Assembly: GCA_963170165.1 (NCBI GenBank)
Contig: CAUJGQ010000121.1
Location: 1-32,442, forward strand
Source of the DNA: Chloroflexota bacterium
GTDB taxonomy: Bacteria > Chloroflexota > Dehalococcoidia > CAUJGQ01
Length of the DNA stretch: 32,442 nt
Direction of reading: 5' to 3'
Shown here: positions 2,738 through 26,464 of the stretch, one piece after another
How positions within the stretch are numbered: position 1 is the first letter of the stretch
How the letters are laid out: the number at the start of each line of letters is the position of its first letter
The notes under the pieces: model-generated
What the model was told of the DNA's origin: nothing
Seen by the model: the letters and a program-made list of their open reading frames with translations, nothing else
The model's database searches: none
Translations under genes and position numbers: made by a program

Positions 2738-4000
2738 TCATGAACCAGCCGGACCGACCAGTGTGATCGGCAGTCCCAACGCGCCGCGACCGAGCACCTG
2801 TACCAGTTCGTCGGTCTTCCAGGCCATGACGACACCGCCCATCATGTCGCGGGCGATGCGCTCCAGCGGCCGGGAGCGTACGTAGGCATGGGCGCCGCAC
2901 GTCTTCATGGCGCCCAGCATCACATCCTCAACCATCCGCCGCAGGTGGTACACCGTGCGGACGAGGTGACGCGTGAATGCCTGCGCACTGGGAAATGGCG
3001 TATCTAGCCGCGCCACGGTGTCATAGAGGAGGCTGCGGCCCGTCTCAAGCCAGTGCTCCATGTGACCGATTGCCCCCTGAGCCCAGCCTTGCTCGGCGCG
3101 GTAGGTCGCCGGCGCCCCAAGCGTAGCGGCCTCGCCCGCCAAAAAACCGTGCCGCTTCTGCACGTACTCAACCGTAAAGTCAAACGCCGCCTGTGCCAGC
3201 CCCAACCAGATCGCCAGGATGCCGAGCGTACCCAGCGAACGGCGCTGGCTCTGGGCGGACACCTGGTTCTGCAACGCCTCAAACACCGCGCGGATCATCG
3301 GCAGCGGCAACACCAGCGCGGCAGAGCGCGGCAGCACCAGGCCCTCGATCTCGATGTCGTGGCTGGCCGTGGCGCGCATCCCCATCGCATCCCAGTTGTG
3401 CTGCAACTTGACGCCGGGCGCGTCCATGCGTGGAAAGGCGAAGACCAGGTCAGGATCGTTGGGCTTGCCCTCGGCGTTCAGGCCGCGGTCAATCACCGCG
3501 CCGCAGAACAAGTACGCCGCCCCTTCACTCATCGAGGCGAATCCTGCCCGGCCGCTGATGACCAGGTCCGGGCCCTGCTCGACGGCGCGATAGCCGGTCG
3601 TGCGGTTGTCAAGCTCGCCGGTGGGGATGGAACCGGGAGCGCAGAGCAGCGCACCGTTGCGGGCGATATCCTCCAGCACGGCGTTACGGCTCGGGAACGG
3701 CGGCAAGGTAGACACGAGATCGGTGCCGATACGGTGCATGTTCAGCGCCACGGCGGTGGAAGCATCGCCGTAGGCAATCTCCTCCATCACCCGCATCTGC
3801 GCCAAGGGGGAGAGCCCGAGTCCGCCCTGCTCGGCCGTGAGCGACAGCCCGGCGAGTCCCAGACCCCGCAGCTGCTCGATATTGGCGGCGGGGAAGCTGC
3901 CATCACGGTCGTGCGCGGCGGCCCGTCCGGCGAAGTCATCGCGCGCCAGCGACCGCACCTGCTCCACCAGCGCCTGTTCCCGCGCGTCGATCATCAGCAT
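2738..4000 (-). CDS. Acyl-CoA dehydrogenase-superfamily flavoprotein
   Basis: A 420-residue flavoprotein with the ACAD fold. The helical N-terminal domain carries GLAGLSLTAEQGGLGLSP. The middle beta domain carries WDAMGMRATASHDIEIEG (about 203-220). The C-terminal four-helix region carries GAHAYVRSRPLERIARDMMGG. Normal dehydrogenases end this helix with an Ile-(Tyr/Phe)-Glu-Gly-Thr motif near the active site; here it reads VMAWKTDEL, so the common catalytic/anchor pattern is missing. That resembles DszC/HsaA-type monooxygenases or atypical members, but function is open. The ATG at 3998-4000 is supported by GGGAGGGAAG 6 nt upstream; the frame extends to 4120 without a ribosome site. It is first of the minus-strand three-gene operon and divergent from the PLD lipoprotein gene. 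Confidence 0.85.
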   Translation of the reverse strand: MLMIDAREQALVEQVRSLARDDFAGRAAAHDRDGSFPAANIEQLRGLGLAGLSLTAEQGGLGLSPLAQMRVMEEIAYGDASTAVALNMHRIGTDLVSTLPPFPSRNAVLEDIARNGALLCAPGSIPTGELDNRTTGYRAVEQGPDLVISGRAGFASMSEGAAYLFCGAVIDRGLNAEGKPNDPDLVFAFPRMDAPGVKLQHNWDAMGMRATASHDIEIEGLVLPRSAALVLPLPMIRAVFEALQNQVSAQSQRRSLGTLGILAIWLGLAQAAFDFTVEYVQKRHGFLAGEAATLGAPATYRAEQGWAQGAIGHMEHWLETGRSLLYDTVARLDTPFPSAQAFTRHLVRTVYHLRRMVEDVMLGAMKTCGAHAYVRSRPLERIARDMMGGVVMAWKTDELVQVLGRGALGLPITLVGPAGS

Positions 4001-4123
4001 CTGCGCTTCCCTCCCGGCCTGCCACGTTTGGGCCTGCGGCCACGTGCCCTGAGCATGACCGATCGACACGCGCCGCGGAAGCTGGACCCCCTTTTTGACG
4101 GCCGGCGCCGGTGCAACCACAAT

Positions 4124-7100
4124 ATGGCGATGGCGGCCTTCCGACAGCCAAACCGGCGAATCCGCGGACGGATGGCAGTCGTGCTGCTGGCGCTTGTGGT
4201 TGTCGCCTGCCGGGAGCCAGAACGGCGCGCCGCCGTCAGCCCATCACCGCCTGCCCCGATGCCGTCACCGCCGGCCGCGACACCGGCGGCCTCCCAATCT
4301 TCGACACATACTCCCATTGCTGCCGCCCGCATGCTGCCGTCGGGCTCCCCGGTTCGCCTGGCCGGCATCGTCACGGCGGACGCCCGCGTGTTCGATAGTC
4401 ATGGTCGCAAGTTCTACATGCAGGACAGCAGCGGCGGTATTGCGGTCTTCGCCGCGGGCGGTGATCTCCGGGTCCGCGAAGGTGATCAGGTCTCGGTGAC
4501 CGGTACCCTTGCTGCCTTCAACAGCGAATTGCAGTTAACGCTGGCCAGTACAAGCGCCGTCCATGTGACGGGGACAGGTGCCCCCATCACGCCGGTTCAA
4601 CGGCGCACGGGTGAGATCACTGTTTCCCAATACGGTGATCTGGCGACGGTGCAGGGCGGGGTGATCGCGAGGCAGGGCACCGCCATCTGGCTTGATGACG
4701 GTACCGGGAGCATTCAGGCGCTGGTCATCCCGCCCGGTATCAACCCGCTACCTGCCGCCGGGGACGCTGTGTCCATCACCGGCATCACCAGCCGCTCCAA
4801 AGGCACTCTGCAGATCCTCCCGCGCCGGCAGGGGGATCTGACGGTTCTGGGGCGGTGGCCCGACCCGGAGCAGCCGTCGCCTGCGCCATCATGGCCGCTG
4901 AGCACGCGGCCCGAGGCCGGTCAGCTGAAACTCACGGCGGTGTACCCGCACACGTACGAAAGCCGGGCGGGAGAGCGGGCGGAGGCAATCGGTGTGGAGA
5001 ACACCGGTGACAGGGCGGTTGACGTCACCAGCTGGCGGCTCAGCGATGCGACGCACGTGGCGGTTTTCCCGCCGGGGACGGTGCTGGCACCAGGTGAGCG
5101 CGTGTGGGTGACCGGTGATGCGGCTCGCTTTGCGCTGGAGTTTGGGTACGCGCCGGATCTGAGCTGGGGAGCGGGCGGCTCTGGCGCGCCTGACGCGCCC
5201 GCGCAGATGGAAGGCGGCGGGCTGCGTTTCTCCAACTTCGGCGGCACGGCGGCGCTGCTCGACCCAGAGGGGGCGGGCGTCGATGTCTTCGTCTACGGTC
5301 TGGGCAGGCTACCTCAATCGGGGTGGAACGGTGTGGCAGTCCAGCCGTACCTGTTTGATACGTTCGTGCCGCCCGCCGGCCAGGTCTTTCAGCGGAAGCT
5401 TGATCAGCACACCGGCCGGCCGCTGCCCGACACCAACACCGCTGCCGACTGGCTGCAAGACACTGACGACGCAGAGCATGGGCGGCGGCTGCTGTATGCC
5501 GGCTGGTCGCTGGGGCCGTTCTTCTATCCGGCAGCAGGCGTCGAACCGGCGACGACGCAGTTGCTGTTGGGACCAGACCATCTGTACGAGGCCACGGCTG
5601 CGTTGATCGACTCCGCACGGGAGCAGATCGACATCGAGGTCTATACCTTCTCCAACCCGTATCTGCTAGACCGGCTGCTGGCCCGCCAGCGGGATGGGGT
5701 CGTGGTGCGCGCGCTGTTTGATGGCGGCGTGTATAACGCTCCCGATGGCAGCTATGAGGAAGACCGCTGGGTCGCGCAGCAGATTGTGCGGGCCGGTGGC
5801 CGCGCCTGGTTCTGGAGCGACGCGCCAGACGAGCGCATTGCGGCCCGCTTCAATAACCACCACCAGAAGTTCCTGATCGTCGATGGCCGCCGCGCGCTGA
5901 TCGCAACCGAGAACTTCGAGCAATCGTCCATGCCTGCCGGCCCCAAGGGCAACGGCACGGCGGGCAACCGGGGGACGGGCGTCATCACCGACGCGCCCGG
6001 CGTGGTGGCCCGGCTTCAGGCGATCTTCGAGCACGATGCCAATCCGGCGCGGCCCGACATCCAGCCGGTAGCGTTGGACAGGATCTATCGCGCCCCGGTA
6101 CGACGGGCTGACCAGAGCGGCTACAGCGTGCAGCGGCCGTCCCCGTTGACGTTGACGGGACCGCTGACCTACGAGCTGATTCAGGCCCCGGAATCGTCAC
6201 TGCGGACCGTGGATTCCCTAATTGGGATGGTGCGGCGGGCGGGGGCGGGTGACTCGGTGCTGGTGCAACAGCAATATGAGCACCTGACCTGGGGCGGCGG
6301 CCGGCCGAACCCCCGGCTGCAGGCGTACATCGCCGCCGCCCGGCGTGGCGCGCGCGTGCTGGTGCTGCTGGATGCGGTAAACGACGCCGGTCCGAACCAG
6401 CGAACGGTTGACTGGTTGCGCGATACCGCGCGGCGAGAAGGCCTGGCACTCGATGCCCGGTTGGGGCGGCCGGCGGGAGGACCGATTCACAACAAGATGG
6501 TGCTGGTGACCGGCGACGCCGAGGGGTGGGTGCACATCTCAAGCATCAACGGCTCGGAGAACTCATCGGTCTTCAACCGCGAGGTTGGCATTCAGCTTGG
6601 GTCAATCGATGCCTACCGCTACTTTGCCCAGGTGTTCGCTTCAGACTGGCACGCGGCGGGTGGGCTGCTGGCCGTAGATACCCGCTCGCCGTCCGCACCG
6701 GCCGCGGCGCTGCATCCTGTGGTCACCAGCGGCATGCTGACCTTGACCGCCCGCTGTATCTGCGAGTTCGCCATCGACGCGGACCCCAGCGCCGGCGCGG
6801 CGCAGCCGGTGGACGGTGTGGCGGCGGTGAACACGCAGACGCTGGCCGATGGCGGCCACATCCTCTACGTGCGCCAGCAGGACGGCGCCGGGGTGTGGGG
6901 GCCGTTGACGGCGCTACCATTCACCGTCTCGCGATCGCCCCCCGCGCTTGACATCGGCTTCGACCCAAATCGCCGGATGGTGACATTGGTGCCCAGTGGA
7001 CCGCACAGCGCCACGGCTGTGATCGCGCCGGAGCAGGTGCGCGCCGGACGGCACGAGTACGTCATGCGCGACGCGTCCGCAGACGAGCTGCGGGTCGTGC

Positions 7101-7387
7101 TTGACAGCGAACTGCAAGCGGAACGGGCGGTGGTGAGGGTGGTCGGGATCGCAGCCGGTGATGGGCCGGTGGTTCCTGTATCCGGCAGCTACCTGCGCAT
7201 CGACTTCAGTGAGGGTGCAGGGCTCACCACTCTCGACAGTGAGGCAGTCACGCCAGACGAGTCCATCACGGCTGCCTACGATGCAATAGCGAACCAAACG
7301 CGGATCGGCGGGACGGTGCGCCCGGGACCGCGGGCACCAGAGCTACGGGTGTCACGCGAGGGTGTGACGATCGTGGTTGGCCGCTGA
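4124..7387 (+). CDS. Secreted multidomain phospholipase D-like lipoprotein (OB-fold + lamin-tail-like + two PLD domains)
   Basis: About 1087 residues. The N-terminus RRIRGRMAVVLLALVVVAC is a signal peptide with a lipobox-like end (Cys29), followed by a Pro/Ser-rich linker. Residues about 75-265 hold two OB-fold-like repeats (GRKFYMQDSSGGIAVF; GTAIWLDDGTGSIQALV) of the kind fused to exported nucleases. Residues about 275-400 resemble a lamin-tail domain (AIGVENTGDRAVDVTSWRLSD). Then come two PLD halves: HQKFLIVD (His580, Lys582, Asp587) and HNKMVLVTGD (His789, Lys791). In the second the Asp is replaced by Thr at the standard spacing, with an Asp two residues later. About 270 C-terminal residues are beta-rich and unrecognised. 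It probably cleaves phosphodiesters (DNA or lipid) at the cell surface. The start is uncertain: ATGs at 4124, 4130 and 4172 all lack a clear ribosome site. The open frame back to 3053 is antisense to the dehydrogenase gene. Confidence 0.87.
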   Translation: MAMAAFRQPNRRIRGRMAVVLLALVVVACREPERRAAVSPSPPAPMPSPPAATPAASQSSTHTPIAAARMLPSGSPVRLAGIVTADARVFDSHGRKFYMQDSSGGIAVFAAGGDLRVREGDQVSVTGTLAAFNSELQLTLASTSAVHVTGTGAPITPVQRRTGEITVSQYGDLATVQGGVIARQGTAIWLDDGTGSIQALVIPPGINPLPAAGDAVSITGITSRSKGTLQILPRRQGDLTVLGRWPDPEQPSPAPSWPLSTRPEAGQLKLTAVYPHTYESRAGERAEAIGVENTGDRAVDVTSWRLSDATHVAVFPPGTVLAPGERVWVTGDAARFALEFGYAPDLSWGAGGSGAPDAPAQMEGGGLRFSNFGGTAALLDPEGAGVDVFVYGLGRLPQSGWNGVAVQPYLFDTFVPPAGQVFQRKLDQHTGRPLPDTNTAADWLQDTDDAEHGRRLLYAGWSLGPFFYPAAGVEPATTQLLLGPDHLYEATAALIDSAREQIDIEVYTFSNPYLLDRLLARQRDGVVVRALFDGGVYNAPDGSYEEDRWVAQQIVRAGGRAWFWSDAPDERIAARFNNHHQKFLIVDGRRALIATENFEQSSMPAGPKGNGTAGNRGTGVITDAPGVVARLQAIFEHDANPARPDIQPVALDRIYRAPVRRADQSGYSVQRPSPLTLTGPLTYELIQAPESSLRTVDSLIGMVRRAGAGDSVLVQQQYEHLTWGGGRPNPRLQAYIAAARRGARVLVLLDAVNDAGPNQRTVDWLRDTARREGLALDARLGRPAGGPIHNKMVLVTGDAEGWVHISSINGSENSSVFNREVGIQLGSIDAYRYFAQVFASDWHAAGGLLAVDTRSPSAPAAALHPVVTSGMLTLTARCICEFAIDADPSAGAAQPVDGVAAVNTQTLADGGHILYVRQQDGAGVWGPLTALPFTVSRSPPALDIGFDPNRRMVTLVPSGPHSATAVIAPEQVRAGRHEYVMRDASADELRVVLDSELQAERAVVRVVGIAAGDGPVVPVSGSYLRIDFSEGAGLTTLDSEAVTPDESITAAYDAIANQTRIGGTVRPGPRAPELRVSREGVTIVVGR

Positions 7388-7394
7388 TGCAGGC

Positions 7395-7805
7395 TTAGGA
7401 GCCTGCCGCCGGCTCGTCCGCTGGGACCACCATGATCTGAGCGATCATGTTCTCGTGGTAGCTGCAGTAGTAGGTCCAGAACCCCTCGACATCGAAGGCG
7501 AAAGACCACTGCCCGCCGGGCGGGATTGGCGGTGAGCTGAACCAGCCATCCTCCGCATAGACGTCGTGCGTGCTCCCGTCGCCTTCGTCCTGGTTGACCC
7601 AGATCACCGTCGAGCCAACGGTCACGATTTCGAAGTCTGGGCGAAACCTGCTGTCGTGCATGACGATCTCAACGGCGCCGTGGCGCGGTACAGCCTCGGA
7701 AGCCTGCGCGTCCAGGGAGCTGCCGGCGGCAGTCACCACCGCCATCATCGCGACCACCGCCGCAGCGCTAAGGCCGAGCCGGGCGAGCTGGTTCCTTCGG
7801 TTCAT
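7395..7805 (-). CDS. Exported plastocyanin-like cupredoxin
   Basis: A 136-residue type 1 copper protein, probably an electron carrier or copper-binding protein outside the membrane. Residues 1-34 form a signal peptide or anchor (MNRRNQLARLGLSAAAVVAM, then a hydrophobic stretch). The cupredoxin domain shows the expected ligands: His80 in STHDVYA, then Cys114, His117 and Met120 in TYYCSYHENM, plus the strand TVGSTVIWVNQDEG. The ATG at 7803-7805 follows GGAAGG with short spacing; a longer frame from 7844 adds 13 residues before the signal peptide. It converges with the PLD lipoprotein gene, leaving only 7 nt between stops and no room for a separate terminator. Confidence 0.88.
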   Translation of the reverse strand: MNRRNQLARLGLSAAAVVAMMAVVTAAGSSLDAQASEAVPRHGAVEIVMHDSRFRPDFEIVTVGSTVIWVNQDEGDGSTHDVYAEDGWFSSPPIPPGGQWSFAFDVEGFWTYYCSYHENMIAQIMVVPADEPAAGS

Positions 7806-7953
7806 GCGTGCCTTCCCACACCGAAGCACGACGGCCAGCGCCATTGCGTTTCAAGTGCTTCCTCCTCGGGCGGCCGTAGACGCAACAATGCATCTGCCGG
7901 AAGCCGGTCCCGTTCCTGTCCGCCGGCGCCAGGAAGACGGTGACGCCAGCCTG

Positions 7954-8324: not shown

Positions 8325-9368
8325 CTACCCCCCGGCGTTCCGCCGGAGTGCGGCGAGCAAGTCCTCCGGCGTGGCGAATGCCTCCTGGTATAGAATCCCG
8401 AGAAACGGGCTGATTGCCCCGGGGAAGGCGCACAGGAAGACCGGGATGCGGACGTCGCGGGCGTGCTGCATCTCGCTCAACACGCCCGGCGAGATCTTGT
8501 CGGTGGGGTAGTACACCACCACCCAGTCCGCCTGATCAATGAGCTGGAAGTCGCGGCTGATCGTCTGGCTATTGAGGTAGGGCTCCGCAGCGGCAATGCC
8601 TTGCTGGGTGACCCCCATTTCCAGCCCGCGGGTGCCGAGGCTGACCGGGGTGTCATCGACCGCCATCGGGTTGTACACCACGTAGCCTTCGTCACGCAGG
8701 CGCGCCGCCAGCGCGGATGCCTCCTCCAGCAGCTCCGGGTTGGTGCGCGTTATCGCGGTGATCGGGTAGCTCAGGTAGATGCGCTTGGGTAGTGGCCGCT
8801 GACACAGGCGGTACAGCATCTCCGGCGGCTCTGCCCGGGCAAGCACGTAGAACGGCTTGCTCTCGTACGTCGCCAGCACCTGCGTCAGCGTCGTCTCGAA
8901 GTCCCGCCAAATGGCGATCTCGGCGACCGTGAGGTGGCCGCGCCATTCAGCGTGTTCCTGCTGACGGGCGTACACCTCGAACGCGCCGTCCACGACGGTG
9001 GCGTAGAAGTCGACGATCGGCGCGAGGTGGGCCTTGACCTGGGCCATGTCCATCGCGGTTTGCAGCCGGCCGCGGCGCATGAAGCAGGCGTGATTCGAGA
9101 TGATCGCCACATCTTCCGCCGGCCAGCCGCGCAGCTCGTCCATCAGCCGCCGGAACGCTGCCGACCGCTGCACATCGAGCACCACCGGATTGCCATCGAG
9201 CAGCGTGGTGGCGTCGTCGGCGATGCGGGTCTCACCTTGCACCTTGGCCAGCAGCTCACCGAACTCCAGCACGCGGCAGCGCCGGCCCTGCTGCTGGAAA
9301 TACGCTGCCACCTCGCGCAGGTAGTCCTTGCGCCCCGACCCCGAGATACCTGAGCACCAGATGATCAT
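8325..9368 (-). CDS. Fusion of degenerate P-loop domain and nucleoside 2-deoxyribosyltransferase-like domain
   Basis: A 347-residue cytoplasmic protein with two parts. The N-terminus MIIWCSGISGSGRKDYL resembles a nucleotide-kinase P-loop, but GxxxxGK[ST] reads G7-ISGS-G12-R13-K14-D15, so the Lys/Ser pair is altered or shifted. Strand-like PVVLDVQ and EDVAIISNHACF could supply Walker-B-like elements. From about residue 195 the sequence resembles nucleoside 2-deoxyribosyltransferases/DUF4406: RIYLSYPIT, DEGYVVYNPMAVDD, IDQADWVVVYYPTD and SPGVLSEMQHAR, where Glu299 sits at the usual nucleophile position. Activity is unproven; it may act on nucleosides, nucleotides or NAD-like substrates. The ATG at 9366-9368 has GGAGG 5 nt upstream. 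It is divergent from the DEDDy exonuclease-like gene 137 nt away. Confidence 0.72.
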   Translation of the reverse strand: MIIWCSGISGSGRKDYLREVAAYFQQQGRRCRVLEFGELLAKVQGETRIADDATTLLDGNPVVLDVQRSAAFRRLMDELRGWPAEDVAIISNHACFMRRGRLQTAMDMAQVKAHLAPIVDFYATVVDGAFEVYARQQEHAEWRGHLTVAEIAIWRDFETTLTQVLATYESKPFYVLARAEPPEMLYRLCQRPLPKRIYLSYPITAITRTNPELLEEASALAARLRDEGYVVYNPMAVDDTPVSLGTRGLEMGVTQQGIAAAEPYLNSQTISRDFQLIDQADWVVVYYPTDKISPGVLSEMQHARDVRIPVFLCAFPGAISPFLGILYQEAFATPEDLLAALRRNAGG

Positions 9369-9400
9369 GCCGTCCTCCGGCGCTGCACTGCGATGCGCAC

Positions 9401-9429
9401 AGCGTACGGACGGCGGTTGAGTACGGCAA
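9401..9429 (-). promoter_or_regulatory. Weak candidate promoter for the P-loop fusion gene
   Basis: On the minus strand TTGCCG (9429-9424) is 17 nt from TACGCT (9406-9401). The -35 is fair and the -10 weak. It lies in the divergent gap. Confidence 0.3.
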
Positions 9430-9505
9430 TGCTCCGTCCGGGCACAGGGTTGCGCGTAGGGACGCCAGGCTCTACCAAGTACCCACGACGGCGATGGAGT
9501 GAGGC

Positions 9506-10084
9506 ATGGGCACCTGGGCCGTATGGGATGTGGAGACGCTGCGCTGGGCTTTCGAGGTGCCGGGCGGCTGGGCGAACCCCGCCGGCTTCGGTCTGGCCGT
9601 GGCGAAGGCGCTGGACGAGCGGGGAGACATGCACACGTTCTACGAGCAGGATGGTCCTGCCCTGCGCGCGTTCCTGGAGCGCAAAGACCTGGTCGTCGGC
9701 TTTAACAGCCTGCGCTTCGATTGCGGCGTCCTGGCCGTGCACGGCGATGTCAGTGGCATCCGCGCCCGCTCGCTGGACCTGCTCCACAGCCTGAGCGAAG
9801 TCACCGGCATCCCCCACTGTGTCAGCCTCGAACGTGCCAGCCGCACCACGCTCGGCGCCAGCAAGCTGCTGGCCGACGGTGGCGAGGCGGTTCAGTTGTG
9901 GCGCGACGCCACACCCTCTAGCCGGCGTCTGGTGGAGGATTACTGCGAGCAGGATGTCCGCCTGACGTTTGACCTGTGGCGGTTCGGCGCCGTCAACGGC
10001 CATGTGATCATTCCGCTCCGTGCGCATCGCGGCCGTCCCGCCCGATTCCGGCAACGGGTTGAGGTGTGCTGGCCGGTACCGTAG
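9506..10084 (+). CDS. DEDDy-type 3'-5' exonuclease-like (RNase H fold) protein
   Basis: A 192-residue single-domain protein with the three DnaQ-like exonuclease motifs in order. Exo I is VWDVETL (Asp8, Glu10). Exo II is VGFNSLRFD (Asp72). Exo III is DYCEQDVRLTFDLWRF (Tyr146, Asp150), a Tyr-x3-Asp spacing that marks the DEDDy class. It therefore probably removes nucleotides from the 3' end of DNA or RNA using two metal ions. It resembles the RNase_H_2/YprB-like group found alone or next to helicases, but no helicase or polymerase is beside it here. The ATG at 9506 follows GGAGTGAGG. The last 25 residues are basic and not conserved-looking. Its partner may be the divergent P-loop fusion gene, which is inference from position only. 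Confidence 0.75.
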   Translation: MGTWAVWDVETLRWAFEVPGGWANPAGFGLAVAKALDERGDMHTFYEQDGPALRAFLERKDLVVGFNSLRFDCGVLAVHGDVSGIRARSLDLLHSLSEVTGIPHCVSLERASRTTLGASKLLADGGEAVQLWRDATPSSRRLVEDYCEQDVRLTFDLWRFGAVNGHVIIPLRAHRGRPARFRQRVEVCWPVP

Positions 10085-10210
10085 ATACACGCAGGCGGGC
10101 GCTACTCCCCCCGGTCACGGCAGGGCGGTGAGCGTACCCGGATTGATGATTGACCGGCACATACCGGCAGGCGCATCGTCAACGGCAGCGACAGCGATGG
10201 AGGCAGATGC

Positions 10211-15007: not shown

Positions 15008-17419
15008 ATGGGTGCGCTGGACGGGGTGCGGGTTCTCGACCTGGCGGGTGGTATCGCCGGCGGCTATGCCGGCAAGCTGCTCGCGGATTTGGGCGCAGAT
15101 GTGCTCCTGGTCGAGCCGCCCGCGGGCGACTCCTGCCGTTATCTCGGACCGTATGCCGCTGATTCCACCGACCGCGAACGCAGTGGTCTGCATCTGTACC
15201 TGCATGCCGGCAAGCGCAGTGTCGTGGCCGGCCTGGCGTCGGAGGCAGGTCGCGCCCTGGTCGCGCGGCTGCTGCCCGATGCAGACGTGCTGCTCACCGC
15301 CCAGCAGCCGGAGGCCCTCGCCGCCGCCGGGCTTGACCCGGACGGGCTGCGCGAGGCGTGCCCGCGGCTGGTGCACATCTCCCTGACTGCCTATGGCGCC
15401 AGCGGGCCGTACCGGCACTGGCACAGCGATGAGATCACCGACTACGCCATGGGCGGCTGGCTGGGCTTTGGTGGTGAGCCGGAGCGCGGCCCGCTGATGA
15501 TCCCCGGTGGCCAGGCGCAGCACCACGGCGGCATGCAGGCGGCGTTGGCGGTGCTGGTGGCGCTGCACGAGCGGGAACGATCCGGACTCGGCCAGTTTGT
15601 CGACATCTCCACGGTCGAGGCAATGCTCTCCGCTCACTCGTGGCTCAGCGTCGCATGGTCCCACACCGGCCAGATCATGGCCCGCACAGCGACGGACTTA
15701 GTCCGCTGCGCTGACGGCTGGGTGTACTTCATGCCGGCGAACCTGGACCGTACCTTTCTGCTGATCGAGCAGCCAGAACTGCTGGATGACCCGCGCTTCA
15801 GCACCCTGCAAGCGCGCATGCAGCACCGGCCCGAACTGCAGGCCATTGTGGCGGAGTGGTGCAAAGACCGCACGATGGAGGAGATCTACCGCACGGGGCA
15901 GGAACTGCGCGTTGCCGTCACGCCGGTGCACACCGTGCGCGACCTGGACCGCGCGGCACAATTGGCGGCGCGTGACTGGTGGGTAGAGCGGGAGCATCCG
16001 CGCGCCGGGCGCGTCCGCCTGCCGGGTGTGCCCTACTGCCTATCAGACACCCCAGCGCAGGTGAGCCACCCGGCGCCGGCCCTGGACGAGCACGGCGCGG
16101 CAGTGCGGGCGACCGGTTGGGGCACGGAGTACACCGCTCGGCCTGCGCCTGGGCCCGTATCAACGGTTGGAGGTAGCGAGCTCCCGCTGGCGGGCGTGCG
16201 CGTGCTGGAGATCACCGCCAACTGGGCGGGACCGCTCGCGGCCCGCTACCTGGCCGATCTCGGCGCCGATGTGATCAAGGTGGAGGCGCCCGCCCGTCCG
16301 GCGACTCGCGGCATGTACTGGCCCGGCAATGACCCCCGCGCCCGTCCTTACAACCGCTCCGGCTACTTCAACAAGCTCAACCGCAACAAGCGCGGCCTGG
16401 TACTGGACCTGGCTCACCCACGCGGTCGCGAGCTGTTCCTCGATCTGGCCCGCTCCACCGACATCGTGATCGAGAACAATAGCGCCCGCGTGATGGGCAA
16501 CCTCGGGCTCGACTACGCCGCGCTGTGCACCGTCAAGCCGGACATGATCATGTGCTCCATGTCGGGATTCGGCGCGACCGGGCCGGAACGGGATTATGTC
16601 GCGTATGGCTCCAACATCGAGACGGTCTCCGGGCTAGCGGCGCTGATGACGTACCCCGGTGATCCCACGCCCCACCGCACCGGCAGCTACTACGCCGACC
16701 CGGTTGCCGGCGGCCATGGCGTCATCGCCATCCTGGCGGCGCTCCGTCACCGCGAGCGCACCGGCCGCGGACAGTGGATTGACCTGTCGCTGCTGGAATC
16801 GGCGGCGGCGCTGTTCGGCGAGGCGCTGATGACGTGGACGATGACCGGGCAGCTGCCCGCGCCGCGTGGCAACCGCCACCCCCAGCACGCTCCCCAGGGC
16901 ACGTATCCCTGTGCTGGCAATGACTCCTGGCTGGCGCTCACGGTCCGCGCTGAGGAGGATTGGCAGGCACTGTGCCGTACGATGGGCCGTGGTGACCTTG
17001 AGTCGCGTTCCGATCTGGCGACGGCGGCCGGCCGCCACGCCGCGCATGACGAGCTGGACACGGCGATTGCCGCCTGGTCGCGATCGCTCGACCATTACGA
17101 GGCAGCGCGCCACCTCCAGGCGGCCGGTATCGCTGCTGCGCCGGTGCTGTCCAACTACGAGCTGCTTTCTGACCCGCACCTGACAGCGCGCGGCTTCTAC
17201 ACACCGGTACCGCACCCAGAGGTTGGGACATTGCCCTTCCCGGGCATGCCCTGGCGCTTTTCGCGGACGCCTGGAACCGTGCGCCGCGGCGCCCCATGCT
17301 TTGGCGAACACAACCGCGCCATCTTCACCGAGGAGCTGGGGCTGAGCGAGCAGGCCATCGCCGAACTGTACGACGCCGGCATCACGGCTGATGAGCCGTT
17401 GGTGCAGTTGACGGGCTAG
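15008..17419 (+). CDS. Double-length class III (CaiB/BaiF) CoA-transferase
   Basis: An 803-residue tandem fusion of two family III CoA-transferase domains; usual members have about 400 residues. Each half begins with the typical strand (GALDGVRVLDLAGGIAGGYAGK; then LAGVRVLEITANWAGPLAAR from about residue 395) and LADLGADV. The second half keeps the catalytic Asp motif, TGSYYADPVAGGHG with Asp564, then RERTGRGQWIDLS. The first half reads PGGQAQHHGGMQ at the same place, with no Asp, so it is probably inactive and structural. Such enzymes move CoA between acyl-CoA and a free acid; the acids are unknown. The ATG at 15008 follows GGGAGG. Its stop overlaps that of the convergent MarR gene in CTAG. 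Confidence 0.92.
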   Translation: MGALDGVRVLDLAGGIAGGYAGKLLADLGADVLLVEPPAGDSCRYLGPYAADSTDRERSGLHLYLHAGKRSVVAGLASEAGRALVARLLPDADVLLTAQQPEALAAAGLDPDGLREACPRLVHISLTAYGASGPYRHWHSDEITDYAMGGWLGFGGEPERGPLMIPGGQAQHHGGMQAALAVLVALHERERSGLGQFVDISTVEAMLSAHSWLSVAWSHTGQIMARTATDLVRCADGWVYFMPANLDRTFLLIEQPELLDDPRFSTLQARMQHRPELQAIVAEWCKDRTMEEIYRTGQELRVAVTPVHTVRDLDRAAQLAARDWWVEREHPRAGRVRLPGVPYCLSDTPAQVSHPAPALDEHGAAVRATGWGTEYTARPAPGPVSTVGGSELPLAGVRVLEITANWAGPLAARYLADLGADVIKVEAPARPATRGMYWPGNDPRARPYNRSGYFNKLNRNKRGLVLDLAHPRGRELFLDLARSTDIVIENNSARVMGNLGLDYAALCTVKPDMIMCSMSGFGATGPERDYVAYGSNIETVSGLAALMTYPGDPTPHRTGSYYADPVAGGHGVIAILAALRHRERTGRGQWIDLSLLESAAALFGEALMTWTMTGQLPAPRGNRHPQHAPQGTYPCAGNDSWLALTVRAEEDWQALCRTMGRGDLESRSDLATAAGRHAAHDELDTAIAAWSRSLDHYEAARHLQAAGIAAAPVLSNYELLSDPHLTARGFYTPVPHPEVGTLPFPGMPWRFSRTPGTVRRGAPCFGEHNRAIFTEELGLSEQAIAELYDAGITADEPLVQLTG

Positions 17420-20186: not shown

Positions 20187-20337
20187 GTGTGCGCGCCGTT
20201 CTCGGCGCACTGGTTCGCCTGGGGAAGCGGCCAGAGCGGGATGATCCCCTACCCGCCGGTGGCAACGGTCCGGCCCAGCACCATGGTTCCGCTGGCCGGT
20301 GACCGAGCGGAGAACGACACACCAGAAGGAAGCAATC

Positions 20338-21786
20338 GTGACCAGTCTCGAAAAGCCCCGGACGGTTGGGGAGTTGCGCGCGTCGGGCTACCAGGTGCTG
20401 CCGGTACGCGAGGAACTTCGCAAGAACCTGATTGCCAAGATCCGGCGTGGCGAGCCCATGTTCTCTGGCATCGTCGGCTATGGCGATACCGTGATCCCGG
20501 CGCTGGAGAACGCCATCCTGGCGGGGCAGGACATCATCTTCCTGGGCGAGCGCGGCCAGGCGAAGTCACGCATGATCCGCTCACTGGTGGAGTTGCTCGA
20601 CGAAGAGACGCCCACCCTCGCGGCCGTCATCCTGGAGGAACACGGTTCCCACGCTCACTCTTTGGCTGAGCCAGAGCTGTTGGAGAACCCCTTCGAGCCG
20701 ATTTCCGCCATTGGCAAGAAGATCATCGAAGAGATGGGTGATCGGGCACCCATTCGCTGGGTCCGGCGCGAAGACCGATACGGCGAGAAGCTGGCGACCC
20801 CTGACATCACCATCGCCGACCTGATCGGCGAGGTTGACCCGATCAAGGTCGCCGAAGGCCGGTACCTCTCGGACGAGCTCACGATCCACTACGGGCTGAT
20901 CCCGCGCACGAACCGTGGCATCTTCTGCCTGAACGAACTGCCGGACCTGGCCGAGCGCATCCAGGTCGGCCTGCTGAATATCATGGAAGAGCGCGACGTG
21001 CAGATCCGTGGCTACCGCGTACGGCTACCGCTGGATGTGTTCGTCGTTGCCTCCGCCAACCCTGAGGATTACACCAATCGCGGCCGCATCATCACGCCGC
21101 TCAAGGACCGTTACGGCGCCCAGATCCGCACCCACTACCCGCGCTCCATCGAGTACGAGATCGACATCATGGAGCGCGAGCGTTCGCAGTTCACGGACAA
21201 GGACTTCACGGTCAGCGTGCCGCAGTTCATGAAGGAAGTCGTCGCCGAGATCACCCGGCTCGCGCGCCGCTCGCCTGATGTGAACCAGCGGTCCGGCGTT
21301 TCCGTCCGCGCCAGTATAGCCAACTACGAGTCGCTCATGGCGAACGCGCTGCGCCGCGCCATCCGTCTCGGTGAAAACCAGGTTGTGCCACGGGTGACGG
21401 ACCTGCCGTTCATCATCCCGGCCATTCAGGGCAAGATTGAGCTGGAGACGGTCGAGGACGGGCGAGAGGAGCAGATCCTGGACAAGCTGATCCAGGGCGC
21501 GCTGGTCGCGGTGTTCAACCGCCACTTCAACATCGGCGAGCTTGAGCCGCTCGTCCAGAAATTCAAGTCCGGCATCTCGGTTGAAGTGTCCGACGCCATG
21601 GGCTCCGAGGAGTACATCCGGCTGGTGCGGCAGATCGAGCCCTTGAGCAAGGCGGTAGACAAGCTCGGCGCCGGGGCATCGCCGGCAACGGTCGCTTCCG
21701 CTGTTGAGTTCGTCCTAGAAGGGCTGCACCTGAACAAGCGCCTCAACAAGGACAAGGTCTCCGGCCGCGTGCAGTATCGTGGCTAG
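20338..21786 (+). CDS. MoxR/magnesium-chelatase-type AAA+ ATPase
   Basis: A 482-residue AAA+ ATPase, probably a chaperone that acts with the VWA protein encoded next. Walker A is LGERGQAKSR (Gly70 to Lys76). The Walker B strand reads GIFCLNELPDL, with Asn199-Glu200 instead of Asp-Glu. Sensor 1 is VFVVASANPEDYTNRG, and arginine-rich TPLKDRYGAQIRTHYP follows as in chelatase I subunits. The C-terminal lid is helical. It lacks the sigma-54 GAFTGA loop, so it is not a transcription activator. The GTG at 20338 has AGAAGGAAG 5-7 nt upstream; an earlier GTG at 20299 has no such site. Downstream, 65 nt separate it from the VWA gene. Confidence 0.88.
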   Translation: MTSLEKPRTVGELRASGYQVLPVREELRKNLIAKIRRGEPMFSGIVGYGDTVIPALENAILAGQDIIFLGERGQAKSRMIRSLVELLDEETPTLAAVILEEHGSHAHSLAEPELLENPFEPISAIGKKIIEEMGDRAPIRWVRREDRYGEKLATPDITIADLIGEVDPIKVAEGRYLSDELTIHYGLIPRTNRGIFCLNELPDLAERIQVGLLNIMEERDVQIRGYRVRLPLDVFVVASANPEDYTNRGRIITPLKDRYGAQIRTHYPRSIEYEIDIMERERSQFTDKDFTVSVPQFMKEVVAEITRLARRSPDVNQRSGVSVRASIANYESLMANALRRAIRLGENQVVPRVTDLPFIIPAIQGKIELETVEDGREEQILDKLIQGALVAVFNRHFNIGELEPLVQKFKSGISVEVSDAMGSEEYIRLVRQIEPLSKAVDKLGAGASPATVASAVEFVLEGLHLNKRLNKDKVSGRVQYRG

Positions 21787-21851
21787 CGGTCCGGCGCGCA
21801 CCGGCCGCAGCATCACCGCGGCACGCGCCTATCCCGAAGGGATCATCCCCA

Positions 21852-24131
21852 ATGACGCTCTATCGCTACTCGGAATGGGACGGCAGCCAGGAGATCCCGC
21901 CCCTCAATGCCGATGAGGTGCTGGAGAACCTCACCGATGATCTGCTGAACTTCGGTGACTTACAGCATTCACTCCGCAACCTCCTCCAACGCGGCATGCG
22001 CAATCCAACGGGGCAGCGCATGCAAGGCCTGCGTGACCTGCTGCAGCAGCTTCGCCAGCAACGCCGCCAGACGCTGGACCGCTATAACCTCTCCTCTGCC
22101 TTCGATGACATCAAGAACAAGCTCAACGAGATCGTCGAGATGGAGAAGGACACCATCGACCGCCGGCTCCAGGAGGCGACGCGCGACCAGCAGGGAGACG
22201 GCGGCCAGCCGGCGGCGGGCGGCCGGCCCGAAGGTGGCGACCAGAGCGATCAAATGTCCGCGCTGGACCAGGCGCTGCGCGACGCGCTCGAGACGGCGCA
22301 GCGGGCCATGGAGCAGGGCGACCGTCAGCAGGGCCAGCAAGGCCAGCAGGGCCAGCAAGGCCAGCAGGGCCAGCGCGGCCAGCAAGGACAACCGGGGCAG
22401 CAAGGGCAGCGGGCGCAAGCGGGGCAACCGGGGCAACCGGGACAACCGAGTGATGACGGCCAGTCTGATCAGTTCAATAAGATGCTGCAGCAGATTGCCG
22501 ACCGCAAACGTAACTTCCTGGAGAACCTGCCGGGTGACCTGCCGGGCGCCGTCAAGGAACTGCAAAACTACGAGTTCATGGACCCGGAGGCCCGCCAGAA
22601 GTTCCAGGAACTGATGGAGAGCTTGAAGAAGGCGATGATGGACACCTTCTTCAAGGACCTCTACAACCAGATCTCCAATATGACTCCCGAGCAACTGGAG
22701 CGGATGAAGCAAATGATCCGCGACCTCAACCAGATGCTCCAGGAGAAGATGTCCGGTGGGCAGCCGGACTTTGACAGCTTCATGCAGCAATACGGTGATC
22801 TGTTTGGCGACAACCCGCCGCAGTCACTGGAAGAGCTGATGGCGCAGATGCAGCAGCAAATCGCGCAGATGCAGAGCCTGCTGGATTCCATGCCCTCGGA
22901 CATGCGCCAGCAACTATCGGATCTCCTGCGTGACAAGGTGGGCGATCCTGAGCTGCAGTCACAGCTTGATGAGCTGGCGCAGAATATCGAGATGATGTTC
23001 CCGATGCGTGACCGGGGCGGCCAGTACCCCTTCCGGGGAGACGAGGAGATCGACCTCCAGGAAGCCATGCGCCTGATGGACAAGATGCAGGGCATCGATG
23101 ACCTCGAGCGCCAGCTCGAGCGCACCCAGTACGGTGGGGACATCGAGGACATCGATGAGAAGCGGCTTGAGGAGATTCTTGGCGAGGAAGCCGCCGACAC
23201 CCTCCGCCAGCTCAAGCAATTCCTGGAGATCCTGGAAGAGGCAGGGTACATCCGCAAGAAGGGCAACACCTGGGAGCTTACGCCGCGCGGAACCCGCAAG
23301 ATTGGCCAGAAAGCGCTGGGAGAGATCTACGCCCAGCTCAAGAAGGACTCCATCGGTAAGCACGCCGTCCGCGAGCGCGGCACCGGTGGTGAGCGGGCCG
23401 ACGAGTCCAAGAAATACGAGTTCGGCGACCCATTCCACCTTGATATTGAAAAGACGATCTTCAACTCGTTCTACCGCGAGGGCGGCCCGCAGGTACCGAT
23501 CAAGCTGACACCGGACGACTTCGAGGTGTTCCGCTCGGAGCAGCTCACGCAGACCGCGACGGTGATGATGCTCGACCTCTCCTGGTCGATGGCGTTGCGC
23601 GGTTCGTTCCAGGCGGCGAAGAAGGTGGCGCTGGCGCTGAATAACCTCATCCGCTCGCAGTTCTCGCGCGACAGTCTGTACATCATTGGCTTCTCCGCAT
23701 ACGCACGCGAGCTGAAGGCCGAGCAACTACCTTATGTTCGCTGGGATGAGTCGGTGCTAGGCACCAACATGCACCACGCCCTGATGCTCGCTCAATCGCT
23801 GCTGGCCAAGCACAAGGCGGGCACCCGGCAGATCATTATGATCTCTGACGGCGAACCCACCGCCCACCTGGAGAAGGGCCGCTCCTACTTTGCCTATCCG
23901 CCCAGCCCGATCACGATCCGCGAAACGCTCAAAGAGGTGAAGCGCTGCACGCAAAAGGGTATTGTCATCAATACCTTCATGCTGGACCGGAACTACTACC
24001 TCAAGGAGTTCGTCAACCAGGTCGCTAAGATCAACAAAGGGCGCGTGTTTTACACTACCCCGGACAAACTCGGCCAGTACATTCTGGTCGATTATGTCGC
24101 CAGCAAGCGTAAGAACCTCGGCGGCTCGTAG
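21852..24131 (+). CDS. VWA-domain protein with coiled-coil and collagen-like Gly-X-Y linker
   Basis: A 759-residue cytoplasmic-type protein without signal peptide. Residues 1-110 are helical. About 159-200 form a Gln/Gly/Pro-rich Gly-X-Y run. About 205-480 are strongly charged, Gln/Met-rich helices likely to be coiled coil. A basic wing-like segment (RKKGNTWELTPRGTRKIG, near 475-490) resembles a winged helix. The C-terminal VWA domain has the MIDAS motif MLDLSWSM (Asp575, Ser577, Ser579), a GTNMHHAL loop and ISDGEPTAH (Asp666). VWA proteins paired with MoxR ATPases insert metals or remodel targets; here the client is unknown. The ATG at 21852 has GAAGGG at a rather long distance. A strong terminator follows. 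Confidence 0.88.
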   Translation: MTLYRYSEWDGSQEIPPLNADEVLENLTDDLLNFGDLQHSLRNLLQRGMRNPTGQRMQGLRDLLQQLRQQRRQTLDRYNLSSAFDDIKNKLNEIVEMEKDTIDRRLQEATRDQQGDGGQPAAGGRPEGGDQSDQMSALDQALRDALETAQRAMEQGDRQQGQQGQQGQQGQQGQRGQQGQPGQQGQRAQAGQPGQPGQPSDDGQSDQFNKMLQQIADRKRNFLENLPGDLPGAVKELQNYEFMDPEARQKFQELMESLKKAMMDTFFKDLYNQISNMTPEQLERMKQMIRDLNQMLQEKMSGGQPDFDSFMQQYGDLFGDNPPQSLEELMAQMQQQIAQMQSLLDSMPSDMRQQLSDLLRDKVGDPELQSQLDELAQNIEMMFPMRDRGGQYPFRGDEEIDLQEAMRLMDKMQGIDDLERQLERTQYGGDIEDIDEKRLEEILGEEAADTLRQLKQFLEILEEAGYIRKKGNTWELTPRGTRKIGQKALGEIYAQLKKDSIGKHAVRERGTGGERADESKKYEFGDPFHLDIEKTIFNSFYREGGPQVPIKLTPDDFEVFRSEQLTQTATVMMLDLSWSMALRGSFQAAKKVALALNNLIRSQFSRDSLYIIGFSAYARELKAEQLPYVRWDESVLGTNMHHALMLAQSLLAKHKAGTRQIIMISDGEPTAHLEKGRSYFAYPPSPITIRETLKEVKRCTQKGIVINTFMLDRNYYLKEFVNQVAKINKGRVFYTTPDKLGQYILVDYVASKRKNLGGS
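22325..22450 (+). repeat. Tandem 9-nt repeat coding a Gly-X-Y tract
   Basis: Near-perfect units of cagcagggc and cagcaaggc are repeated, then degenerate copies rich in ggggcaacc. They encode about 14 Gly-X-Y triplets (mainly Gly-Gln-Gln, Gly-Gln-Arg, Gly-Gln-Pro) inside the VWA protein. This is a likely site of length variation by slippage. Confidence 0.9.
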
Positions 24132-25435: not shown

Positions 25436-26464
25436 ATGATCCGTCGGCTCAGCCTGCCTGCGGTGTTGCTTGGTGCGGTCCTGCAATTGGCCGGCCTGAT
25501 GGTTGACGCGGTGCTCCACGGACGTGACGCCACGCTGGCGCAGCGCGAAGGGGTGCTCACGCTCGCTAATCCCGGCCACCTGCTGTTCGCCCTCGGTCTG
25601 TCGCTGTGCCTGGCCGGCGCATGCCTGCTTGTCCTGGCGCCATTGCTGTCCCGGCAGCGCCGCCGCGCCGGTGGGGCAATACTGGCGGTGGCGCCGGTGG
25701 CCGCCGTTGCCACGCTGGCGATCGCGGCGTTTGTAGTGGTTGAGCGCAGTGGCGGCCTGTCCGGCCACCAGCATGACACCGCTGCCTCTGTCACGGACCA
25801 TGGGCACGACGCGGAGGAGCATGCCGGCGCCGCCGGTGATCCGAACCACAACCACGCCCACCCGGACGCTACCGGTGGCGCCACCGCTGCCACCCTCGAC
25901 GCTGCCGCGCACCAACACGGCAACGAGGTCAACATCAGCTGGGAACAGATCCGGCAGATCGACGCATACCTCGTCGCGGCCAAGGCTGCTACCGAGAAGT
26001 ACCGCGACGTGCGGCTGGCACGGGCCGACGGCTACCGGCAGGTAACGCAGAACGTGCCAGGGCTGGGGGCACACTTCACCCACGCTGGTCTGCTGGCCCA
26101 GGGCACCTTCGACCCGGAGCGGCCGCAGATCCTGCTCTATGACCAGCTGGCAGACGGCAGCTTCGAGCTGGTCGGCGTCAGCTGGGCGCTGCCCAAGCGT
26201 CCCGGTAACGATACGCCACCCTTCCCGTACTTTGGCAAGCTTGCCACCTGGCACTACCACACGAATCTGTGCTTTGGCGCCCGCGCCGGTTCCCCCGTGG
26301 TGGCAATCAGCACACCCGAAGGTTGCCGGGCGGCGGGTGGCGCCCACGTCAAGGAGACGCCCTGGATGGTGCATGCCTGGCTGTTCCGCGAGAGTCCGGA
26401 GGGTGTGTTCAGCCACGAGAACAGCACGATCAAGGGCACACAGCCGCTGGCTGCCAGCCGCTAG
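25436..26464 (+). CDS. Membrane protein with His-rich linker and uncharacterised conserved-looking C-terminal domain
   Basis: A 342-residue protein with three predicted N-terminal helices (about 8-27, 45-70, 80-102). A linker at 110-161 holds twelve His residues (HQHD, DHGHD, NHNHAHPD, HQHG) and could bind Cu, Zn or Ni. The C-terminal 170 residues probably fold outside the membrane. They carry regularly placed His/Cys residues: GAHFTHAG (213, 216), TWHYHTNLC (273, 275, 279), Cys297, His304, His313 in WMVHAWLF and His327. This layout recalls domains of unknown function seen in exported proteins of other phyla, but I cannot name it. The ATG at 25436 has GGAGGGG upstream. The K+ channel lies before it and a lipid kinase after. 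Confidence 0.78.
   Translation: MIRRLSLPAVLLGAVLQLAGLMVDAVLHGRDATLAQREGVLTLANPGHLLFALGLSLCLAGACLLVLAPLLSRQRRRAGGAILAVAPVAAVATLAIAAFVVVERSGGLSGHQHDTAASVTDHGHDAEEHAGAAGDPNHNHAHPDATGGATAATLDAAAHQHGNEVNISWEQIRQIDAYLVAAKAATEKYRDVRLARADGYRQVTQNVPGLGAHFTHAGLLAQGTFDPERPQILLYDQLADGSFELVGVSWALPKRPGNDTPPFPYFGKLATWHYHTNLCFGARAGSPVVAISTPEGCRAAGGAHVKETPWMVHAWLFRESPEGVFSHENSTIKGTQPLAASR

Follow-up and report, generated by a model that had tools for sequence, protein, structure and literature searches.

What would a protein do in which a kinase-like P-loop domain is joined to a domain of the nucleoside 2-deoxyribosyltransferase (NDT) type? This question was raised by an open reading frame in a 32,442-nt stretch of DNA from a Chloroflexota bacterium (class Dehalococcoidia, contig CAUJGQ010000121.1; the whole stretch is hereafter the window), for which an earlier note, made from the sequence alone, had claimed such a fusion. 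The reading frame at 8325-9368 proved real, with the correction that it is read from the minus strand; stops interrupt the plus strand in this region. The 347-aa ORF is not a product of chance, because its codon bias places it among the better-scoring genes of the window and because full-length homologues with both halves occur in other genomes (E down to 9.7e-94). The AlphaFold2 (AF2) model of the whole protein (mean pLDDT 90.4, pTM 0.89; all structure predictions here are of monomers) agrees with a domain border near residue 190, and the motifs quoted in the earlier note were all located in the translation, namely GISGSGRKD and YLSYPIT at the residues given below, QADWVVVYYPTD at residues 279-290 and SPGVLSEMQHAR at residues 293-304. 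We hold the assignment of the protein as a two-domain P-loop/NDT architecture to be nearly certain. Within the window the gene stands by itself, and a search for an intrinsic terminator or a strong promoter marking it gave neither. The features to which we refer are as follows.

8325-9368, minus strand: gene for the fusion of a putative pseudo-adenylate kinase and an NDT-superfamily domain, 347 aa, stop codon included
8328-8795, minus strand: NDT/DNPH1-superfamily domain, residues 192-347 (phrog_355 E 4e-10, Foldseek, AF2)
8472-8492, minus strand: SPGVLSE, residues 293-299, with Ser293 corresponding to phosphate-binding Ser98 and Glu299 to the nucleophile Glu104 of DNPH1
8532-8555, minus strand: RDFQLIDQ, residues 272-279, aligned to EQDLEWLQQ of DNPH1, with Asp273 corresponding to the general acid Asp80
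8757-8777, minus strand: YLSYPIT, residues 198-204, with Tyr198 corresponding to catalytic Tyr24 of DNPH1
8799-9368, minus strand: archaeal adenylate kinase (ADKA)-type domain, residues 1-190 (PDB profile search, Foldseek, NF003122, AF2)
9075-9107, minus strand: Walker B-like strand AIISNHACFMR, residues 88-98, with Ser91 in place of the adenylate kinase (ADK) Asp and His93 kept
9324-9350, minus strand: degenerate Walker A GISGSGRKD, residues 7-15, with Arg13 in place of Lys and Lys14 in place of Ser/Thr
9373-9378, minus strand: Shine-Dalgarno sequence GGAGGA, 4 nt upstream of the ATG start, read from the sequence

Having established the gene, we explored how widely the fusion is distributed. 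Scanning genome and viral collections with this one protein returned no relatives, and the first family alignment was too diverse to serve a pattern search; relatives surfaced through whole-genome searches of the class and the phylum, followed by alignment of intermediates. Full-length fusion relatives (24-48% identical) were found in Chloroflexota, Planctomycetota and archaea of the Thermofilales. With the source genome itself counted, a protein search found them in 8 of the 393 genomes sampled from its class, and an alignment search found relatives in 15 of the 400 from its phylum. A scan of named genome contigs recovered 27 loci in Chloroflexota (including Dehalococcoidia), Planctomycetota (some of them Phycisphaerae), Thermofilales and Thaumarchaeota, the last represented by one truncated contig; these counts of relatives are lower bounds, since the contig scan relied on two peptide patterns only. 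In a maximum-likelihood tree of 31 members, four well-supported subfamilies were resolved, namely the clade of the window's protein (5 rows, support 100/100), Thermofilales (100/99), Planctomycetota together with two Dehalococcoidia/Chloroflexota rows (100/99), and other Chloroflexota (98/98), while long branches are present and the branching order among the four subfamilies is unresolved. The fusion family is ancient and common to archaea and bacteria. An archaeal origin of the N-terminal half would fit, because its closest solved relatives are archaeal kinases.

Several more distant proteins were also seen. Locus L023 (G533:C21) encodes a much diverged and longer relative, a 603-aa ORF with the P-loop GPGGVRAPQ, in which the glycosidase motifs are kept by eye (YISHPIT, SRD and SQGVKAE). 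Two viral models in BFVD, A0A8S5VIY1 and A0A0U4IH67 (294 and 315 aa), can be aligned to the greater part of the query, with a high rmsd and another domain orientation, and may be separate kinase-NDT fusions.

The suggestion that the N-terminal half is kinase-like was borne out and can be made more precise, in that the fold is that of an archaeal-type adenylate kinase. A 23-member profile searched against the PDB (hmmsearch) matched 6LN3 with E 1.9e-16 and 6PJW, 1NKS and 1KI9 with E of about 1e-10, and Foldseek aligned this half to 6PJW with a TM-score of 0.84 (195 columns, rmsd 2.6), so that the ADKA fold is kept across the full N-terminal domain. The NCBIfam adenylate kinase model NF003122 matched 22 of 23 members, all below the cut-off where bit scores are given (best family score 34.2 bits vs a 155-bit cut-off), and the query protein itself had no match to this model. 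The site itself is eroded. Residues were counted in 29 relatives aligned with three ADKs. Where the Walker A of archaeal adenylate kinases has Lys-Ser/Thr, the query reads Arg-Lys; across the family the Lys position (13) is always basic (Arg in 23 of 29 relatives, Lys in 6), position 14 is Thr in 11 of 29 and never Ser (Lys, Leu, Val, Ile or Pro otherwise), and GxxG is invariant, with variants such as GMSGSGRT, GISGSERT, GISGSGRL, GQVGLDRP and GQTGIDKK. The degenerate P-loop described in the earlier note is thus a family trait, while its exact Arg-Lys-Asp is peculiar to the query protein. A missing P-loop Lys is by itself insufficient to establish a dead kinase, because the methanogen ADK 1KI9 also lacks it (GVGGTT). 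The losses extend well beyond the P-loop, however: where the three ADKs compared read DTH, the Walker B Asp occurs in none of the 29 relatives (Ser, Asn, Val or Ala instead) and His93 in all of them; the Arg of DRDxxR, present in all three ADKs, is replaced by Leu57 in 29 of 29; two conserved ADK Gln residues have become invariant Leu64 and Arg68; and the Asp-Thr-Thr-Arg lid motif is gone. New invariants have appeared in this half (Leu57, Leu64, Arg68, Phe96, Trp154, Arg155 and Glu158). An ordinary separate Adk is encoded elsewhere in the source genome. Given the sum of these residue losses, the N-terminal half is probably a catalytically dead kinase, as judged from its sequence.

The C-terminal half, in contrast to this eroded kinase site, has an intact glycosidase site. 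Its assignment to the NDT superfamily held up by structure, by profile matches and by the invariant Glu299, and the possibility that residues 191-347 would turn out to have another fold did not materialize. The whole protein matched phrog_355 with E 1.2e-9. A separate model was made of this domain alone (pLDDT 85.7), and all 19 of its Foldseek matches listed at E <= 0.001 were NDT, YtoQ, DNPH1 or BcmB structures, the best being the type II NDTs 7O62 and 6EVS; the better matches had E of about 1e-4 and TM-scores (by target length) of 0.59-0.79. Pfam PF05014 matched 13 of 23 members, with the query below the cut-off (23.3 vs 28.8 bits), as it also was for DUF4406 (PF14359, 17.7 bits vs 22). The best PDB match by sequence profile was DNPH1; its E of 0.011 is weak taken alone, but the register is correct. 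The earlier note's comparison with free-standing NDT/DUF4406 proteins needs a correction: by fold NDTs rank first, whereas the solved relative closest in sequence is DNPH1 and not DUF4406. In DNPH1, the catalytic triad consists of Tyr24, Asp80 and Glu104, and the phosphate of the substrate is bound by Ser98 (PMC10603095). The profile alignment pairs Asp80 with Asp273, Ser98 with Ser293 and Glu104 with Glu299, while Tyr24 was paired with Tyr198 by hand from its position in the first strand. The Tyr/Asp (or Asn)/Glu triad of the superfamily is thus present as Tyr198, Asp273 and Glu299, and Glu299, numbered correctly in the earlier note, does sit at the nucleophile position. Tyr198, Ser200, Pro202, Asp273, Gln279, Gly295, Val296 and Glu299 are each found in 29 of 29 relatives, and Ser293 in 27, with Ala in the other two. 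The protein is not a DNPH1 orthologue, since Arg30 and His56, the base-recognition residues of DNPH1, have no conserved counterpart in the family: position Tyr+6, where DNPH1 has Arg30, is Thr, Ser or Gln (Thr204 in the query), and in the C-terminal half none of the columns that are invariant or almost so is a His. For the same reason, the base or the substrate may be quite different from that of DNPH1.

With the kinase site eroded and the glycosidase site untouched across archaea and bacteria, it seems that the glycosidase half is the catalytic one and that the kinase-like half has been kept for a role other than phosphate transfer. We therefore lean, with somewhat better than even confidence, towards a nucleotide N-glycosidase of the NDT superfamily, whether hydrolase or transferase, with a dead ADKA module that would bind a nucleotide and position or gate the reaction. 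In this scheme, a (deoxy)nucleoside 5'-phosphate would dock in the C-terminal domain, its phosphate lying close to Ser293, Asp273 would protonate the leaving base, and Glu299, held by Tyr198, would attack C1' to give a covalent sugar-phosphate ester that water (or another base) would then resolve. The N-terminal domain, with its ADKA fold kept and phosphate transfer presumably lost, would most likely bind a nucleotide and thereby shape the substrate site, hold an oligomer or gate activity, and the biological role may be cleaning of the nucleotide pool or salvage. N-glycosidic chemistry is the likely part of this proposal, judging by the conserved triad residues. A nucleotide substrate we put at about an even chance: a 5'-phosphate is suggested by Ser293, since nucleotide-acting members of the superfamily have an uncharged residue in the 5' pocket where nucleoside NDTs have Asp/Asn (PMC12884076) and since the latter lack a phosphate pocket (PMC10603095). 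A more specific version, in which the dead adenylate kinase would respond to AMP, ADP or ATP and turn the removal of bases from nucleotides on or off according to energy charge, is speculative and, in our estimate, rather unlikely to be correct as it stands; if true, it would make a pseudo-nucleotide-kinase an allosteric sensor for nucleotide-pool cleaning, ancient and common to archaea and bacteria.

We then considered gene neighbourhoods. In three sister genomes (L003, L005 and L006), the fusion gene directly follows cinA within a few bases (the L003 cinA scored 433 bits vs a cut-off of 379 for NF001813) and is adjoined downstream by a gene for an MBL-fold hydrolase. CinA (competence/damage-inducible protein A) is a nucleotide enzyme of the NMN deamidase/ADP-ribose pyrophosphatase type. 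Elsewhere, by names read from the sequence, the gene overlaps the end of an isoleucyl-tRNA synthetase-like (ileS) gene (L002), is preceded by a gatB-like gene (L035 and L055) or lies between glmS-like and dnaG-like genes (L049), and folP is also among the neighbours in other groups. A comparison of neighbours across subfamilies found no conserved partner beyond common families such as ABC ATPases. The context does not fix a pathway, because the cinA operon is confined to one genus-level group. At all four Thermofilales loci (L040, L041, L052 and L054), the fusion gene is divergent from small glutaredoxin-like and AIR-synthase/ThiL-like genes.

These data bear on several other explanations. The cinA gene immediately upstream in the three sister genomes would suit a catalytic domain acting on pyridine dinucleotides or their fragments (NMN, NAD or ADP-ribose) in NAD turnover, as would an AMP-binding-type domain, which could accommodate the ADP half of NAD or ADP-ribose; yet the link is limited to that single genus-level group and the closest triad residues belong to enzymes acting on (deoxy)nucleotides, and we regard this explanation as unlikely. 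Slightly less probable still is a bifunctional salvage enzyme, in which the N-terminal domain would remain an active nucleotide kinase that supplies the glycosidase with its substrate or takes the substrate away. A kinase would account for a fold kept over the whole length of the domain, for the invariant His93 and GxxG and for the always basic Walker position, methanogen ADKs lack the Lys as well, and there is a characterised HGPRT/adenylate kinase fusion (PMC7326950), but such an enzyme would have to work without the Walker B Asp in any member, without Ser/Thr after the basic residue in 18 of 29, with an invariant Leu57 for the ADK Arg and with no Asp-Thr-Thr-Arg lid motif.

Improbable to much the same degree is a nucleoside (rather than nucleotide) deoxyribosyltransferase that exchanges bases in salvage and to which the kinase-like domain lends structural support: the ranking of 7O62 and 6EVS as the best Foldseek matches of the isolated domain speaks for it, against a 5' pocket with Ser and not Asp/Asn (27 of 29) and a best sequence match to nucleotide hydrolases. 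The earlier note had also allowed for a toxin or a nucleotide signal, and NDT-like domains are indeed used in conflict systems. That the protein is a toxin or defence effector, with the kinase-like domain sensing a trigger and nucleotides being depleted in response, is nevertheless very improbable, and this option found no support here. No PADLOC model matched the query, and the family yielded only weak matches of single members; phage, plasmid and viral collections held no relatives of the fusion protein; and the neighbours are housekeeping genes, with no defence-island context and no partner or antitoxin adjoining the gene.

The nucleotide N-glycosidase with a dead ADKA module can be compared with several known systems. 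DNPH1 (Rcl, 2'-deoxynucleoside 5'-phosphate N-hydrolase 1) shares the fold of the C-terminal domain, the Tyr-Asp-Glu triad and the phosphate-binding Ser in register, but it is a stand-alone dimer of ~150-170 aa in which Ser128' is donated by the helical extension of the partner subunit, whereas the fusion protein has a preceding 190-aa ADKA-type domain and a helical insert (residues ~241-278). Archaeal adenylate kinases (ADKA; 6LN3, 6PJW, 1NKS and 1KI9; NF003122) resemble residues 1-190 in fold, in the GxxG loop and in a THA-type motif; relative to them, the fusion protein has lost the Walker B Asp, the DRDxxR Arg, two Gln and the lid Asp/Arg motif, its family mostly has Arg for the Walker A Lys, and a second domain is attached. 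Type II NDTs, YtoQ, the CMP N-glycosidases MilB/BcmB and DUF4406 proteins have the superfamily fold and the catalytic Glu but no kinase-like domain, and nucleoside NDTs have Asp/Asn at the position where the fusion family has Ser (PMC12884076). Precedents exist for an NDT-type enzyme joined to another nucleotide enzyme (the DmtZ-DutZ, or NDT-dUTPase, phage fusions) and for a salvage enzyme joined to a nucleotide enzyme (HGPRT/adenylate kinase; PMC7326950), although the partner or the catalytic partner differs and neither combines ADKA with NDT. The architecture as a whole is named by none of the Pfam, NCBIfam and PADLOC models, and our literature searches, for which subscription papers were mostly out of reach, returned no description of the fusion; the earlier note, too, knew of none as a described enzyme. 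Both parts are of known kinds, and what is new is their combination, one partner being an apparently dead nucleotide kinase. Among the minor matches, PelA and lectin hits from a single-sequence PDB search were judged to be chance, being absent from the profile searches, as was a Pfam PreAtp-grasp match seen in one member only.

Among proteins with the protein-kinase fold, pseudo-enzymes are familiar. For a family-wide pseudo-nucleotide-kinase conserved with a partner domain in archaea and two bacterial phyla, our searches found no description. Because 22 of 23 members weakly match NF003122, many probably carry an adenylate kinase or AAA-domain annotation, which would be wrong for most of them. 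An eroded kinase site beside an intact glycosidase site is a clear contrast, and it opens the function to direct testing.

The surroundings of the gene in the window were also inspected. On its downstream side lies a small minus-strand ORF (7395-7844), cupredoxin-like by eye and with no Pfam match, which is separated from the fusion gene by a short unmatched plus-strand ORF. On the other side, a 192-aa RNase_H_2-type protein (9506-10084, plus strand; PF13482, 22.5 bits vs a cut-off of 22) is encoded head to head with the fusion gene. An operon with the minus-strand ORF 9365-10090, which overlaps the fusion gene by 4 bases, was rejected, as that ORF is antisense to the better-scoring RNase H-type gene. 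In the plus-strand ORF 3053-7387, two PLD-like domains occur together with a lamin tail domain and an OB-fold-like stretch; the initial several hundred codons of this ORF are probably an overrun, being antisense to an acyl-CoA dehydrogenase-like ORF (2738-4120, minus strand). Farther along the plus strand, we observed an 803-aa protein with a tandem pair of CoA-transferase family III domains (15008-17419), a pair of AAA-type (MoxR/RavA-like by eye) and VWA genes (20299-24131), with a QGQQGQ collagen-like low-complexity stretch in the VWA protein, and a 342-aa protein without Pfam or NCBIfam match (25436-26464) that has a membrane-like N-terminus and a His-rich middle.
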